NCBI GenBank assembly: GCA_017999915.1
Contig: JAGNKX010000013.1
Span: 62,001 to 126,000, forward strand
Source: Spirochaetota bacterium
GTDB taxonomy: Bacteria > Spirochaetota > UBA4802 > UBA5550
Direction of reading: 5' to 3'
DNA length: 64,000 nucleotides
The notes beneath the pieces were generated by a model. The model searched no databases. It saw only the letters and a program-made list of their open reading frames with translations, and was not told the DNA's origin. Made by a program: the position numbers and the translations under genes. Position 1 is the first letter of the stretch. The number at the start of each line of letters is the position of its first letter. Positions 1 to 26,830 of the stretch are shown piece after piece.

Positions 1-2126
1 CCTCCCGCACCCGTTGCTCCCGTGTCACCGGCGCCCGCGGCGCCGGTAAGGCCCGCGGTGCCCGCAGCGCCCCCCGCGCCGCCATTGCCGCAATTAAGCG
101 TGGAACCTGTCAGGGTAATCCCTGAAGTCCAGCCATGCTTGTATATCGCAAAAGAAGGGCCCCCGGCGCCGCCGCCCCCGGCGCTGCCGCCTCCGCCTGC
201 GCCGCCGCCGCCCCCGTCTCCTCCGGCGCCGACCTCATCGGTATTGTAATCAGGGCCGTCGCCGCCCCTGCCGCCGTTTCCGCCATAGCCGCCATCACCG
301 CCCTTGCCGCCGCTGCCTCCATAACCGCTTGTGATAGTGCAGTTCTTGATAATAACTATAGAATCTATCAAAAAAACGCCGAATGACCCGCCGCCGCCAT
401 GGCCGCCGTTTCCGCCTTTTCCTCCTTCTCCACCGGCACCGCCACCGCCACCGGCATTGCCGGTTCCATCGGCAAACATTAACTCAAGTACCATGTTTCC
501 CCGCGTTTGAGTGCCCCCGCCGCCCCCGCCGCCCCCGCCATAACCGGGGCTGCCTTCCAGCCCCGCCTGGCCCGAGGTTGAAACCCAGATATTGTTAGTG
601 ACAGCACCTGACGAACCGCCTTCGACATTGGCTCCGGTTTGGCCATTGGCGCCGGTGCTTCCTTTTTGACCATCCACCCCTTGACACCATGCCCAGGCAA
701 GCACATTAATACAATCGCTTCCTCCGGCTTCTCCTCCAGAACCTCCCGGGGTTACATCACTTTCGGCTATATGCCCGTATGTACCGTTCTGTCCATCCCA
801 TTTGCTATCCCAGAACTCACCGGTGCCGCCGTCGCCGCCGTTACCGCCATGGTTGTTGCTCGTAGCTGACCCGGATCCTCCGGGTCCTCCGGCGGCGGAC
901 GTAAGGTCATCCGCATACCCCCGTTGGCCGGCATTCCCGTCGGCACCGGCGGATCCGGTGGCGCCTGGCGTCCCATCCTCGCCAGCATATCCGTTTCCGG
1001 CGGAAATAAAACTATTCTTCAATTCGACTGTACTATTTTTCAAACGCAGACTGTATGAACTCTTCCCAAAATCAGCCGCGTTTTCACCGGAAATAGTGAA
1101 TCCATCAATATAAATATTGTTTATGTTTTTCCCGTCAATGGCGATATATTCGCTTTGCCCGGTATCACTATCAATGATCGTGCCGCCCTGGATGGCGGTC
1201 GTATAGGAGGGAGTAACTGAAGACTTAAAACTGTCCCGAACCCATATTGAAGGATCAAAACCGCCGAAGAGGCTCACACCGCTGGCCAGGGTCAGGCTTC
1301 CTTCATACACACCGGCGCTCACGTACACGTCGCTGCCGGCCGCGCCGGCCGCGATGATGGCCGCCGGAATGGTTCTCTTGGGGCGCGAACGGTCGATACC
1401 CTCGTTGGCGTCGTTTCCGCCGATCGCGACAAATATGCCGGCGCCCGCCTTTTTCATGACATAGATATACACCCGGCTTGACAGGCTGTTTCCTTCCCCG
1501 TCATTCACCCGCAGGTCAAAGGCGATGGTGCAGACATCAGATGGAGCTGTAAAGGTAGGATTGACGCCCGTGAGAGAACCGTTTCCAATTGTCGGTCCGA
1601 GAATCTGTGTCCAGGAATATACCAGGGTATCTCCATCGGGATCACTGCTCCCGCTCCCGTCCAATGTAACTGTTTCACCGATGGTCACATCCCGGTTTTC
1701 GCCCGCATCGGCCATGGGTCCGCGATTGTCGGCCACGTTGACCGTGACAAGGTCCGATGACGAACGTCTGCCGTTATTAATCGTTAATCTGATTTCATAG
1801 GTGCCCACGGCGTTAAAAAAGAAGCTTGGCGCAATTAATGTGTTATCGTTAAAAACGGCGGTGCTTCCATCCGGTTGGTAGACTATTTCCCAATAAAATG
1901 TCAGGACCTTTCCCTCGGAATCATAGCTCCCTGACCCGTCAAGATTAATGGTTCCACTATAACTGTAAGCATTCTGGTCGGCTCCAGCATTGGCAACCAG
2001 TTGATTTTGCGACAGCAGTGAAGGACCCAGCAGAAATCCCTGTTTATTATTTTCACTTTCGCATTCTGTAACAATGATGCATAATATGATCAATGGCAGC
2101 AGTGCGAGTTTTTTAGTGTAATTCAT
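1..2126 (-). CDS. PKD / Gly-rich surface lipoprotein, partial at left edge
   Basis: An open frame runs from an ATG at 2126 (preceded on the minus strand by AGGGGA) to position 1 with no stop, so the C-terminus lies outside the window. The start encodes a hydrophobic leader (LALLPLIILCIIVTEC) followed by polar residues, a relaxed spirochaetal lipobox. Next come two PKD-like segments (starting at NAGADQNAYSY and again near residue 130) and a beta-helix-like region. Long Gly-rich stretches follow, broken by strand-like segments such as SSYSLRLKNSTVELKNSFIS. It is the third and last gene of a tandem family and is clearly homologous to the next two genes. A secreted or surface-attached structural or adhesive role is inference; no catalytic motif is visible. 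Confidence 0.85.
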   Translation of the reverse strand, partial: MNYTKKLALLPLIILCIIVTECESENNKQGFLLGPSLLSQNQLVANAGADQNAYSYSGTINLDGSGSYDSEGKVLTFYWEIVYQPDGSTAVFNDNTLIAPSFFFNAVGTYEIRLTINNGRRSSSDLVTVNVADNRGPMADAGENRDVTIGETVTLDGSGSSDPDGDTLVYSWTQILGPTIGNGSLTGVNPTFTAPSDVCTIAFDLRVNDGEGNSLSSRVYIYVMKKAGAGIFVAIGGNDANEGIDRSRPKRTIPAAIIAAGAAGSDVYVSAGVYEGSLTLASGVSLFGGFDPSIWVRDSFKSSVTPSYTTAIQGGTIIDSDTGQSEYIAIDGKNINNIYIDGFTISGENAADFGKSSYSLRLKNSTVELKNSFISAGNGYAGEDGTPGATGSAGADGNAGQRGYADDLTSAAGGPGGSGSATSNNHGGNGGDGGTGEFWDSKWDGQNGTYGHIAESDVTPGGSGGEAGGSDCINVLAWAWCQGVDGQKGSTGANGQTGANVEGGSSGAVTNNIWVSTSGQAGLEGSPGYGGGGGGGGGTQTRGNMVLELMFADGTGNAGGGGGAGGEGGKGGNGGHGGGGSFGVFLIDSIVIIKNCTITSGYGGSGGKGGDGGYGGNGGRGGDGPDYNTDEVGAGGDGGGGGAGGGGSAGGGGAGGPSFAIYKHGWTSGITLTGSTLNCGNGGAGGAAGTAGLTGAAGAGDTGATGAG

Positions 2127-2147
2127 TCTGATTTCCCCTTATTCACC

Positions 2148-4181
2148 TTACTCGTCACGCTGTCCGGATTCACCCGCTGAACCGGCGCTGCCCGATGACG
2201 CGCCTCCTGAGCCCCCGGATCCGTAAATCAATGAAGTGTCATTAGTATAAATAATTGAAAACTGCCCGTATTTATATATCGAGTATGATGGTCCTCCGGC
2301 GCCGCCGCCGCCCCCGCCGCCGCTGCCGCCGCTGCCGCCGGAACCGCCGTTCCCGCCTTCGCCGATCTCATCATTGCCGTAGGTTGCGCCGGCGCCTCCG
2401 GCGCCGCCCGGTCCACTGGCCCCGCCTGATCCGCCGGAACCGCCGTTTCCGCCATTGCCGCTGCTTATCGTGCAATTCTCAATTGTTATGACCGATTCAA
2501 TTATGAAAAGTCCGAAGGAGCCCCCGCCGCCCGCGCCGCCGCTGCCGCCATGGCCTCCTTCACCGCCGCCGCCGCCGCCCCCGCCGCCGTTGCCGGTGCC
2601 AGGAACTGTGAACCAGGTGTATTGACCACCGCCGCCTCCTCCTCCGCCGCCGCCGTTGCCCGGGGTGCCATCCGTTCCGGCGATACCCGCATCTGAAACC
2701 CATAGGTTGTTATTGAGAGATCCGGAGGACCCCCCCGTGCCATGTACGCCGTTATTGCCCGAGGACCCACTGCTGCCGCCGGAACCATTCTCCCCCTCTG
2801 TGCCATAATCTCCGCCGCTGCCGCCGGTTCCCGCTGTTCCCCCGTATAGTCCGACATATCCGTTTTCGCCGCGGTCCCCTTCGCCATTGTCTGCGGGAGC
2901 GGGATCGATATTCTCATCGTAGTAGCCGCCATCTCCGCCTCTACCTCCGTTCCCCCCGCTATAACCGTTGCCGCCGCTTCCCCCATTGCCGTTTCGCGCA
3001 TTGTCTATTGCGCCGTCCTGGCCGGCGGCACCGGCACCGCCTGCCGACCCGTCGGCCCCGCTTGATCCGTTATTGCCCGGAGCGCCGTTCCCGGCTGTTA
3101 TATAACAATAACGAAGTGTGACGTTGCTGTAGATCAATCGTATCCCATATGATCCACTTCCCGCTGTGGTTGCATTTGCGCTGGTGATGGTAAGCCCCTC
3201 GATGACGGCATTGCTGATGCCGTTTCCATCTACGGCCAGCGTGTTCCCCTGTATGGCGCAGGTAAACAATGGCGTATATGAAGGTTCAAGATTGTCCCGC
3301 ACCCAGGTGGAAGGATCAAAGCCGCCGTAGATGCTGACGCCGTTTGACAGGGTGATGCTTTCATTGTATACTCCGGCGCTCACGTACACATCGCTCCCCG
3401 CAGCCGATGCCGCGTTTATTCCCGCCTGGATCGTTTTCTTGGGCCTGGCGCGGGTGCCTTCGTAACCGTCATCGCCCGTTGTCGCCACATAGATGCCTGA
3501 TCCGCCTTTTTTCATGACAAATATATAAACGCGGTCGGCAAAGCTGTTGCCGGCGCCGTCGTCGACCCGCAGGTCATAGGCGATGGTGCAGATTTCCGAT
3601 GGGGCGGTGAAGGTGGGATTGATGCCGGTGAGGGTGCCGCTCCCGATGGCGGGCCCGAGCACCTGGGTCCAGGTATATGCAAGGGGATTGCCGTCAGGAT
3701 CGGCGCTGCCGCTCCCGTCCAGGGTCACGGTTTCATTGACGGTCACTTCCTGGTCGGCTCCGGCATCGGCCGTTGGTCCATTGTTTCCGGCCACATCCAC
3801 GGTCACCAGGTCCGTTGATGAATAATATCCATTGCTCACCCTGAGGATGATTTCGTAGGTACCTGTCGTATCATAGGTAAAAGAGGTTTTTGCTTCTGTG
3901 GGATCTGAAAATGCGATGGCGCTTCCCGGGGGCTGATATCTTATCCCCCATGAATAGGTGAGGTTCTTCCCATCAGGGTCGTAGCTGCCCGATCCGTCAA
4001 GATCAATGCTTCCTTGTAATATGTTGACACTCTGATCGGCCCCGGCATTGGCCACCGGCGCGCGGCCCGCCACCACCTGGGTCAGGCTCAGCATCAGTGC
4101 CGTTTCCTTCCGGTCATGGCATGTCATGAAGGTTCCGCATGCAATGATTATCACGATAATGAAAAGTTTTTTATGATACAT
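2148..4181 (-). CDS. PKD / Gly-rich (PGRS-like) surface lipoprotein
   Basis: 677 aa. The N-terminal leader ends near Cys21 (GTFMTC, then HDRKE), consistent with a spirochaetal lipoprotein. Residues about 42-128 and 133-222 are two PKD-type domains (NAGADQSVNILQG; DAGADQEVTVNET; both with DGSGS and DPDG motifs). Residues about 225-330 resemble DUF1565 (GIYVATTGDDG, KKTIQAGI, SIYGGF). From about residue 345 on, beta-strand-like segments (RLIYSNVTLRYCYITAGNG; FIIESVITIENCTISSGNG) alternate with long GGX or GXY Gly-rich inserts containing runs such as GGGGGGGGG. Known families suggest a beta-helix scaffold exposed at the cell surface; the Gly-rich parts resemble mycobacterial PGRS composition, not necessarily ancestry. 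It lies 21 bp from its downstream paralogue and 20 bp from its upstream one, so one operon is likely. Confidence 0.88.
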   Translation of the reverse strand: MYHKKLFIIVIIIACGTFMTCHDRKETALMLSLTQVVAGRAPVANAGADQSVNILQGSIDLDGSGSYDPDGKNLTYSWGIRYQPPGSAIAFSDPTEAKTSFTYDTTGTYEIILRVSNGYYSSTDLVTVDVAGNNGPTADAGADQEVTVNETVTLDGSGSADPDGNPLAYTWTQVLGPAIGSGTLTGINPTFTAPSEICTIAYDLRVDDGAGNSFADRVYIFVMKKGGSGIYVATTGDDGYEGTRARPKKTIQAGINAASAAGSDVYVSAGVYNESITLSNGVSIYGGFDPSTWVRDNLEPSYTPLFTCAIQGNTLAVDGNGISNAVIEGLTITSANATTAGSGSYGIRLIYSNVTLRYCYITAGNGAPGNNGSSGADGSAGGAGAAGQDGAIDNARNGNGGSGGNGYSGGNGGRGGDGGYYDENIDPAPADNGEGDRGENGYVGLYGGTAGTGGSGGDYGTEGENGSGGSSGSSGNNGVHGTGGSSGSLNNNLWVSDAGIAGTDGTPGNGGGGGGGGGGQYTWFTVPGTGNGGGGGGGGGEGGHGGSGGAGGGGSFGLFIIESVITIENCTISSGNGGNGGSGGSGGASGPGGAGGAGATYGNDEIGEGGNGGSGGSGGSGGGGGGGAGGPSYSIYKYGQFSIIYTNDTSLIYGSGGSGGASSGSAGSAGESGQRDE

Positions 4182-4201
4182 TATAACAACATTCCACTCT
4201 A

Positions 4202-6190
4202 TTAATTACTGCTGTTGCAGTCTCCGTCAGAGCCGGGATTGCCCGAGGAAGCGCCCCCCGTGCCCCCTGAGCCCATTGCCACCCGTGACAAGGTTACGTT
4301 GGCCATTGACAAACCGCTTTTATATATTCCGAACGATGGGCCGCCTGCGCCGCCTCCGCCGTGACCGCCGTTCCCTCCATGGCCCCCGGCGCCGCCGCTG
4401 CCGCCCGCGCCGATCTCGTCTGTGGCATGACTTGCGCCGCTCCCGCCGGAGCCGCCGGCCGCGCCGGAACCGCCGGTGCCGCCCCTGCCTCCATTGCCGC
4501 CATTCCCGCTGGAGATATCGCAGTATGAAGCCGTTATGACCGAATTAATTAATAAAAATCCAAAGGAAGCCCCGCCGCCGTTGCCGCCGGTGCCGCCGGT
4601 GCCAAGGCCGCCGCCACCCCCACCGCCGCCGCCGCCGTTGCCGCCGCCGTTAACGACAAGGCCGCCGTATTGGCCGCCGCCGCCGCCGCCGCCCCCGCCG
4701 CCGCAGCCGCCTTCACCGTCTGTTCCGGCGGTGCCATTCGATGAAACCCAGAGATTGCTGACCAGTGAACCGGATATCCCCGCCGGGCCGTTTGTCCCGC
4801 TGTATCCGTTCAATCCCGCGGTACCGTAATCTCCTTGTGTGCCGGGACGTCCTCTGAGACCTCCGGAGCCTCCCTGTGTTATCGATATCCCGTTTTTCAG
4901 TCCGTATTGACCGTCCTCGCCGTTCTGGCCCCGGCTGTACGCATCGTATATGCCATTGCCGCCCCTGCCGCCGCTGTTCCCGTTATAGCCGGTACCTCCG
5001 CTGCCTCCGGCTCCGCCTTCACCGTCTTCATCCCCGTTTTGGCCGTTGCCTCCGGCTCCGCCGGTCTGGCCATTGGCGCCGTCCGTTCCAGCCAGTCCCG
5101 GTGCCCCGTTGCCCGCTGTGATTATGCAATCATTGAACACGACATTGCTGCTTATCAGGCGTACTGCATAGGAGCCTCCGCCCGCCGCTGTGGCATCGTC
5201 GCTGGTTATAGAGAGTCCGTCGATGACAAGATTGTTCACGCCGTTGCCATCTACGGCGACGGTACTTCCCTGTATGGATGTCTGGAACGTTGTTGTATTC
5301 CTTTCCCACGTGGTATGGAGAAAGCCGCCGTAAATGCTCACGCCATTCGCCAGGGCCAGGCTTTCCCCGTAGTCGCCGTTGCCCACATACACGTCGCATC
5401 CCGCCGCCAGTGCGGCGGCAATGCCCGCCTGGATCGTCTGTTTCGGGGCCGTCCGTGTCTTACCGTCGTTGGCGATGTCGTCGCCGGTGGTCGATACATA
5501 TATGCCGGCCCCGGCCTTTTTCATGACAAATATATACACCCGGTCGGCCAGGCTGTTGCCAGATCCGTCATTCACGGTAAGGTCATAGACGATGGTGCAG
5601 ACTTCCGAGGGGGCGGCAAAGGTTGGATTGGCGCCGCTGAGGGTCCCGGCGCCGACGGCGGGACCGCTGATCTGGGTCCAGGTGTAGGTGAGAGTATCGC
5701 CTTCGGGATCGGCGCTGCCGCTCCCGTCCAGCGTCACGATGTCGCCAAAACCTACTTCCTGATCCGGCCCGGCGTTGGCCGTGGCACCGGTATTATCCGC
5801 AACGTATACGGTCACCAGGTCAGACGCTGTGCGTGAACCGTCGCTCACGGTGACCATGATCTCGTAGGTCCCGGCGGTGTCAAAGGTCAATGTGGTTTTA
5901 ACCTTAGTGGAGTCGGAAAAAGAGGCTGCGCTTCCAGCCGGCCGGTGGACTATTTCCCATGAAAAGGTGAGGTTCTTCCCTTCGGGGTCGAAGCTTTTGG
6001 ATCCGTCCAGTTCGACGCTCCCGGTATAGAGATAAACGTTTTTATCTGCCCCGGCTTTTGCGACCGGCAGCTGGTTGATCGACATGACGGGCCCCTGCAG
6101 CAATCCCTGCTTCTTCTCCTCGCCGCATTGGACCAGGATCCCGCAGGCCACGACGGCCGCGATCACTATGAGCTTATTGCGGTATTTCAT
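4202..6190 (-). CDS. PKD / Gly-rich (PGRS-like) surface lipoprotein, first of three
   Basis: 662 aa from the ATG at 6190, which has an AGGA about nine bases upstream. An in-frame ATG at 6217 adds nine non-hydrophobic residues and is less likely. The leader (KLIVIAAVVACGILVQC, then GEEKK) gives a plausible lipobox LVQC. Two PKD domains (KAGADKNVYLYTG and NAGPDQEVGFGD) are followed by a DUF1565-like stretch (GIYVSTTGDDI, KQTIQAGI, SIYGGF). Gly-rich blocks are interleaved with strand segments VRLISSNVVFNDCIITAGN and FLLINSVITASYCDISSGN. The architecture is the same as the two downstream genes, but the Gly-rich inserts differ in length and sequence, as expected for rapidly evolving repeats. Function unknown; an extracellular matrix or adhesion role is inference. 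Confidence 0.88.
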   Translation of the reverse strand: MKYRNKLIVIAAVVACGILVQCGEEKKQGLLQGPVMSINQLPVAKAGADKNVYLYTGSVELDGSKSFDPEGKNLTFSWEIVHRPAGSAASFSDSTKVKTTLTFDTAGTYEIMVTVSDGSRTASDLVTVYVADNTGATANAGPDQEVGFGDIVTLDGSGSADPEGDTLTYTWTQISGPAVGAGTLSGANPTFAAPSEVCTIVYDLTVNDGSGNSLADRVYIFVMKKAGAGIYVSTTGDDIANDGKTRTAPKQTIQAGIAAALAAGCDVYVGNGDYGESLALANGVSIYGGFLHTTWERNTTTFQTSIQGSTVAVDGNGVNNLVIDGLSITSDDATAAGGGSYAVRLISSNVVFNDCIITAGNGAPGLAGTDGANGQTGGAGGNGQNGDEDGEGGAGGSGGTGYNGNSGGRGGNGIYDAYSRGQNGEDGQYGLKNGISITQGGSGGLRGRPGTQGDYGTAGLNGYSGTNGPAGISGSLVSNLWVSSNGTAGTDGEGGCGGGGGGGGGGQYGGLVVNGGGNGGGGGGGGGGLGTGGTGGNGGGASFGFLLINSVITASYCDISSGNGGNGGRGGTGGSGAAGGSGGSGASHATDEIGAGGSGGAGGHGGNGGHGGGGAGGPSFGIYKSGLSMANVTLSRVAMGSGGTGGASSGNPGSDGDCNSSN

Positions 6191-6271
6191 AGCGTTAATT
6201 CCTGAATGTTGCCCCATGTCCAGTTCCGCAGTGACCGATCAATGCCGCTGATCGGAAGTTCCTCAGTACCG

Positions 6272-26361: not shown

Positions 26362-26460
26362 TAATAGCGGTAAATATCATTTAAACATGCCTTCTTCAGT
26401 CCCTGGGTTTGTAATTCGAGATATTTATTTGTCATAAACTTGTTTCTGTATAGATATTAA

Positions 26461-26830
26461 GGGTCAGAGCCCCTTAAAAGGTCCCCGCAAAGGTCGGAAC
26501 TCGCGACGATTATCGTCGAAAACAGTGACAGCTTCAGGATGAAGGGTCAGAGCCCCTTAGGAGCCCCCCGCAAAGGTCGGAACTCGCGATGATTATCGTC
26601 GAAAACAGTGACAGCTTCAGGATGAAGGGTCAGAGCCCTTTAGGAGCCCCCCGCAAAGGTCGGAACTCGCGATGATTATCGTCGAAAACAGTGACAGCTT
26701 CAGGATGAAGGGTCAGAGCCCTTTAGGAGCCCCCCCGCAAAAGATCGAAAATCGCGAAGATTGTCGCCGAAATCAGTATCAGCCTCGGGGTTAAGGGGCG
26801 AAGCCCCTTAGGAGTCCCCCCGCAGGGGTT
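26461..26830. repeat. Tandem array of 83-bp units
   Basis: Units start with GGGTCAGAGCCCCTT or a close variant at 26461, 26544, 26627 and 26710 (period 83), with a diverged fifth unit beginning near 26796. The first three units are nearly identical. Each contains GCGACGATTATCGTCGAA or a one-base variant; in unit 1 CGACGATTATCGTCG is a perfect palindrome (26504-26518). The last unit has an AAGGGGCGAAGCCCCTT hairpin. Confidence 0.88.

Follow-up and report, generated by a model that had tools for sequence, protein, structure and literature searches.

Glycine-rich inserts at fixed points of a putative beta-helix in tandem, probable spirochaete lipoproteins

The tail-fibre adhesin gp38 of Salmonella phage S16 (PDB 6F45) has two extended beta-helix turns, 18 and 77 residues long, whose ten polyglycine-II helices pack into a sandwich of three layers; hypervariable segments at the tip are thought to bind the receptor (PMC6851490). 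Similar glycine-rich designs are built on a TNF-like fold in Pam3 gp24 (PMC9608196) and on a TNF-like scaffold in ALK (PMC13243192), and models of the glycine-rich triplets of mycobacterial PE_PGRS proteins show polyglycine-II sandwiches in which one edge is hydrophobic (PMC9436101). Here we describe three tandem minus-strand genes of a Spirochaetota bacterium whose products invite comparison with these systems. The genes occupy positions 1-6190 of the 64,000-nucleotide stretch that was analysed (the window; bases 62001-126000 of contig 13 in a 5.46-Mb genome of 29 contigs). We think it reasonably likely, with a probability of roughly 0.6, that they encode outer-envelope lipoproteins in which extended beta-helix turns form a polyglycine-II sandwich that carries a variable binding tip.

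The genes are read in the order gene 3, gene 2, gene 1 (products W3, W2 and W1) across intergenic gaps of 20-21 bp, and each product ends in a C-terminal module that we divide into coil 1, insert 1, coil 2, insert 2, coil 3 and a tail. The stretch that follows the ITAGNG motif is 267-348 residues long and 37-41% glycine. The coil blocks align with one another under a single pattern, S-Y/F-x-x-x-L-x-x-S-x-V-x-x-x-x-C-x-I-S/T-S/A-G-N-G, and this alignment confirms the view of the initial annotation that the glycine-rich runs begin after ITAGNG or ISSGNG and stop before SFG or SYG. At the sequence level the insertion points are real, and they appear to sit at one corner of a beta-helix, between equivalent coils. 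When the mature third protein (gene 3) was modelled with AlphaFold2 from a six-sequence alignment, the three coil blocks were predicted to form the same trio of strands (residues 320-325/328-332/335-337, 521-527/530-534/537-539 and 598-604/608-612/615-617), which may, at low confidence, be the coil pattern of a beta-helix.

The same arrangement is found in very distant relatives. A profile search of 393 spirochaete genomes recovered the module in only 13 genomes, of three families: two belong to the window's genus, four to a second family (f34) and seven to a third (f22). It was not found in four other searched genomes of the window's genus. The congener (G003; CALMRZ010000044.1) carries the same gene triplet at the same position behind the same barrel-like gene, with counterparts that we call R3, R2 and R1; its record names an uncultured Spirochaetes bacterium, which supports the spirochaete-like host proposed from the sequence. 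The four f34 species, all of one genus, have a single gene with a short-linker N-terminus that lacks PKD domains. In f22, whose members include the cultivated type strain of Turneriella parva, the module is the C-terminal end of a lipoprotein of 1300-1575 residues, the first 900 or so of which give only sub-threshold, Ig-like Pfam matches; in T. parva the module takes up roughly the final 500 residues of a frame of 1522 residues (chromosome positions 4143551-4148116, minus strand). One C-terminal module thus stands behind three different N-termini: two PKD domains, a short linker, or about 900 residues of other sequence. A further protein (L042, from genome G217 of f34) matched the f34 query and was rejected as a different glycine-rich protein, having GGxGG arms but no coils. 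Viral contigs yielded no relative; a plasmid search gave no match to the cassette or to the T. parva C-terminus, and matched the full protein over its PKD part only. Pfam and NCBIfam, searched at loose thresholds, placed no model on the glycine-rich module, although the composition correction of HMMER penalises such sequences, and the collection of papers that was searched contained none pairing DUF1565 with glycine-rich sequence. Similar proteins are to be expected in myxobacteria, which we mention only as a lead.

The inserts themselves are conserved. In each of 16 proteins, drawn from all three groups, the length of insert 1 falls within 180-211 residues, and insert 2 is 52-57 residues long in all but one, R3, in which 32 residues (the out-arm and the turn) are missing and 25 remain. 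Alignment of 11 of these proteins reveals 55 invariant glycine columns. Insert 1 opens with G-x-x-G and passes through several glycine segments with variable spacers to a hydrophobic piece (NLWVS, FYVPVS or FLVAYQ); there follow G-x-x-G-x-x-G, a long glycine run, a variable loop, a second glycine run and GGxGGxGGG-S. Insert 2 consists of an out-arm of GGX triplets, a polar turn of 7-8 residues (ASHATDEI, SDNCGGYG or ANGPDDG) and a back-arm, and the tail motif SSGNxG is common to the window's genus and T. parva. Glycine recurs strongly at every third residue of insert 1 (z 5.4-8.2 in six proteins of two genomes). The glycine segments are of near-constant length and alternate with variable spacers. 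What varies inside the inserts is the non-glycine residues and the lengths of the spacers; only 7 of the 205 columns inside glycine segments are gapped, a figure that is partly a product of how the segments were constructed and that we do not use as an argument.

Composition does not account for this likeness. Against shuffles that kept triplets intact (300 per pair), pairs drawn from different groups scored z 4.1-8.6 for insert 1, a level reached by none of the 300, and z 2.1-6.6 for insert 2, reached by at most 9. In orthologue pairs the ratio of nonsynonymous to synonymous divergence (dN/dS) at glycine columns is 0.03-0.09 even though the synonymous sites of the inserts have diverged (dS about 1 or more), and the remaining columns change far more, with dN of 0.7-1.1. 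The glycine scaffold is under strong purifying selection, and it is the X positions and the spacers that take up most of the variation. This contradicts the earlier description of the inserts as fast-evolving filler between conserved strands, and the second half of that description fares no better: pairwise identities of 48-74% in coil 2 and 32-57% in coil 3, set beside 43-57% in insert 1 and 57-90% in insert 2, do not make the coils clearly more conserved than the inserts. Since the blueprint of the loops has been kept in very distant spirochaetes, the loops look folded rather than random.

The alternative that best withstands this evidence is that only the coils and the PKD domains fold, while the inserts lack structure and serve as flexible loops or spacers. 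The very low AlphaFold2 confidence in the inserts is what this would predict, and their hydrophobic content is low (about 6-14%); disordered linkers, however, seldom keep such lengths and 55 invariant glycine columns across families, and the shuffles indicate that residue order matters beyond triplet composition. We therefore consider disorder unlikely.

We favour a folded sandwich, and picture the protein as follows. A leader with a probable cysteine anchor is followed by two Ig-like PKD spacers and a short, putative parallel beta-helix of the DUF1565 type. Glycine-rich arms extend one corner of its successive coils and amount to about 180-210 residues behind coil 1 and about 55 behind coil 2, with a short tail behind coil 3. 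In these arms, glycine-rich segments of near-fixed length are separated by short variable spacers. Packed against one another as left-handed polyglycine-II helices, the arms most likely form a rigid sandwich, leaving the spacers exposed as a variable tip that probably binds a ligand or a surface. In other words, a lipid-anchored rod with PKD spacers would present a rigid glycine sandwich at the cell surface. A parallel beta-helix rises by about 4.8 Å from coil to coil, which is also roughly the distance between polyglycine-II helices, so arms that leave neighbouring coils at the same corner could be stacked without strain. Polyglycine-II is our best idea by likeness to S16 gp38: in gp38 beta-helix turns are extended into glycine-rich motifs with variable segments, and at the level of sequence the same appears to hold here. 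The two differ in that the turns of gp38 (18 and 77 residues, ten motifs) belong to a phage protein, whereas these are cellular lipoproteins with inserts of about 200, 55 and 20 residues, and the likeness is one of design rather than of demonstrated sequence homology. The initial annotation had already proposed a beta-helix with polyglycine-II-like loops; its glycine-rich insertions at a fixed corner stand, and its polyglycine-II component is carried by analogy with gp38, not by a structure. Pam3 gp24 and ALK/LTK likewise stack the glycine-rich loops of a beta scaffold in a lattice and use them in recognition, but the scaffold is TNF-like and belongs to a phage fibre or a eukaryotic receptor.

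Several observations weigh against a polyglycine sandwich. The AlphaFold2 model, built from six sequences, reproduces three-strand coils at the insert borders, but the predicted local distance difference test (pLDDT) is only about 30 in the inserts and about 50-60 at coils 2 and 3. A glycine segment has 19-24 residues here and fewer in gp38, so that tight turns within the segments, or longer helices, must be assumed. No solved homologue of the module was found, the PDB profile matches being collagen-like and driven by composition; the best of them, 8zxl ('spindlefibril'), was rejected because a residue-by-residue reading revealed a match of repeat composition. Finally, barrel-like genes adjoin the module gene in all three groups, which fits an outer-membrane setting, but these neighbours are not one family.

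A different role for the same helices is quite improbable in our view, namely that the inserts are sails of the PGRS type whose hydrophobic edge lies in the outer membrane, mobile in the lipid and binding no ligand at a tip. The PE_PGRS proteins resemble the spirochaete proteins in their GGX triplets and predicted polyglycine-II sandwiches, and a hydrophobic segment does recur in insert 1; there is, however, a single conserved segment of this kind per protein, not a row, and a probable lipid anchor is already present. The insert lengths, polymorphic in PE_PGRS proteins, are conserved here, and the inserts are built on a lipid-anchored beta-helix. No PE domain was matched by Pfam in the window proteins, which begin instead with a lipoprotein leader and PKD domains, and the GRPLI linker motif occurs in none of the 16 proteins, so that the initial comparison with PGRS proteins holds as an analogy and goes no further. 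We give still less weight to a trimer held together by a collagen triple helix of G-X-Y segments. Collagen entries do appear among the PDB profile matches, and insert 1 of gene 3 begins with up to 33 residues of G-X-Y free of GG, but pure G-X-Y stretches span only 9-18 residues in relatives beyond the genus, proline makes up just 1.7-4.4% of six proteins from two genomes, Pfam gives no Collagen match, and GGX triplets with long glycine runs make up the bulk of the module, its arms interrupted by spacers. That slippage in GC-rich codons expanded low-complexity repeats, and that no structure was selected, deserves almost no credence: within the inserts Tandem Repeats Finder reports arrays of the GCC type and of 9-27 bp, but glycine has been retained there while synonymous sites diverged, and the cross-family conservation of lengths and glycine columns argues strongly against it. 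The RTX motif GGxGxDxUx occurs at most once per protein, and Pfam gives no RTX or autotransporter barrel match.

The glycine-rich parts may also have moved between genes. Gene 3 and its orthologue R3 (73% identity overall) are 81-88% identical in their PKD and DUF1565 parts and 45-54% identical in insert 1, coil 2 and coil 3. Ahead of the border of insert 1, 51 of 175 fourfold sites differ; beyond it, 69 of 120 do (p = 1.3e-6); glycine codons alone give 10 of 41 and 52 of 90. Such closeness of the N-terminal halves and distance of the glycine-rich halves suggests exchange. In the DUF1565 part, R2 lacks the same six residues as W3 and R3 and clusters with them (99% support), whereas its glycine-rich part clusters with W2 (74% support). 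The simplest reading of these sequences is that glycine-rich halves have been exchanged between alleles or tandem copies. Misalignment of repetitive sequence may add noise, but the coils, which align without doubt, give the same jump. It is tempting to go further and see in the module a surface-recognition device, a beta-helix with a polyglycine-II sandwich that is mobile between lipoprotein N-termini, has its tips exchanged between alleles or paralogues, and is a cellular counterpart of the phage polyglycine adhesins. We hold that extension to be rather doubtful, and are just as tentative about the accompanying idea that such a recognition module is one described by no family model.

The N-terminal parts are more conventional. 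By eye, a hydrophobic leader is followed by a cysteine (C21) that is invariant in six proteins of two species, in agreement with the lipoprotein leader proposed initially; most members have an earlier cysteine that offers an alternative lipobox site. The two PKD domains proposed for each gene are borne out, since the K319L-like PKD family (PF22352) matches two stretches in each of the three proteins at 75.5-93.3 bits, above the cut-off of 27. In the gene 3 model these domains have pLDDT values mostly of 70-94, and a Foldseek search of the PDB with that model returned Ig/PKD-type matches only (2yrl PKD, TMt 0.77). The DUF1565-like assignment (PF07602) is marginal: gene 2 reaches 20.9 bits against a gathering cut-off of 20.3 (positions 2-146 of 257), genes 1 and 3 fall below it, and the family is absent from the plain hmmscan listing. 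A pattern, GIYVsttGdD...SIYGGF, is shared with relatives in the order; DUF1565-like relatives there (e.g., L010 and L014) lack glycine-rich inserts, unlike the window proteins. The features are listed in Table 1; the open reading frame of gene 3 could also start at 6217, and gene 1 runs past base 1 of the window.

Table 1. Positions of the lipoprotein genes, their parts and the adjoining barrel-like gene (window coordinates unless a locus is named)
Feature	Position	Strand	Basis or remark
Gene 3, PKD-PKD-beta-helix/glycine-rich lipoprotein	4202..6190	minus	662 amino acids from MKYRNK
Gene 3, two PKD domains	5516..6082	minus	Pfam K319L-like_PKD, 9.6e-27
Gene 3, first part of the DUF1565-like putative beta-helix with coil 1, up to ITAGNG	5105..5515	minus	Alignment
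Gene 3, glycine-rich insert 1	4568..5104	minus	Length class of 16 proteins
Gene 3, coil 2 (SFGFLLINSVITASYCDISSGNG)	4499..4567	minus	Alignment; three strands in AlphaFold2 model
Gene 3, glycine-rich insert 2 (out-arm, polar turn ASHATDEI, back-arm)	4340..4498	minus	Length class, arm/turn map
Gene 3, coil 3	4274..4339	minus	Alignment; AlphaFold2 model
Gene 3, glycine-rich tail (GSGGTGGASSGNPGSDG)	4205..4273	minus	SSGNxG end common with Turneriella parva
Gene 2, paralogue	2148..4181	minus	677 amino acids; 59-60% identity with gene 3
Gene 2, glycine-rich insert 1	2520..3083	minus	Alignment, length class
Gene 2, coil 2	2451..2519	minus	Block alignment
Gene 2, glycine-rich insert 2	2289..2450	minus	Length class, arm/turn map
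Gene 1, paralogue	3..2126	minus	708 of 727 amino acids inside window; full length from genome contig
Gene 1, glycine-rich insert 1	387..989	minus	Alignment, length class
Gene 1, coil 2	318..386	minus	Block alignment
Gene 1, glycine-rich insert 2	156..317	minus	Length class, arm/turn map
Upstream gene, outer-membrane-barrel-like protein, 264 amino acids	6272..7066	minus	Barrel nature judged by eye
Gene 3 and R3, orthologue pair with synonymous-divergence jump at start of insert 1	L004:16202-18190 and L023:8007-9896		

The barrel-like protein encoded upstream has no Pfam match. Its gene adjoins the lipoprotein gene in G000, in the congener G003 (84% identity) and in G015 (51%), from a third genus within the family of the window genome, where the next gene encodes a PKD lipoprotein of which the contig contains just the first part; several more distant paralogues are present per genome. 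Downstream of gene 1 (L004:10438-11670) lies another probable lipoprotein of 410 residues, the end of which (GYIDWHLPSKDELNKLY) we take, from its pattern, to be DUF1566-like. Elsewhere in the window, at 26459-26824, is a tandem array of 4.4 copies of an 83-bp unit, about 90% alike, across which no long open reading frame is called; the units carry CGCGATGATTATCGTCG and the inverted stretch AGGGTCAGAGCCCCTT.

When bacterial proteins are rich in glycine, the usual response is to set them aside as disordered or as filler of the PGRS kind. In these spirochaetes the glycine skeleton is a conserved template that spans families, and because those families include the cultivated T. parva, the idea of a polyglycine sandwich is directly testable. 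If it is true, a polyglycine sandwich owned by a cell, and not by a phage, and used as a surface module would enlarge the very small set of solved folds of this kind.

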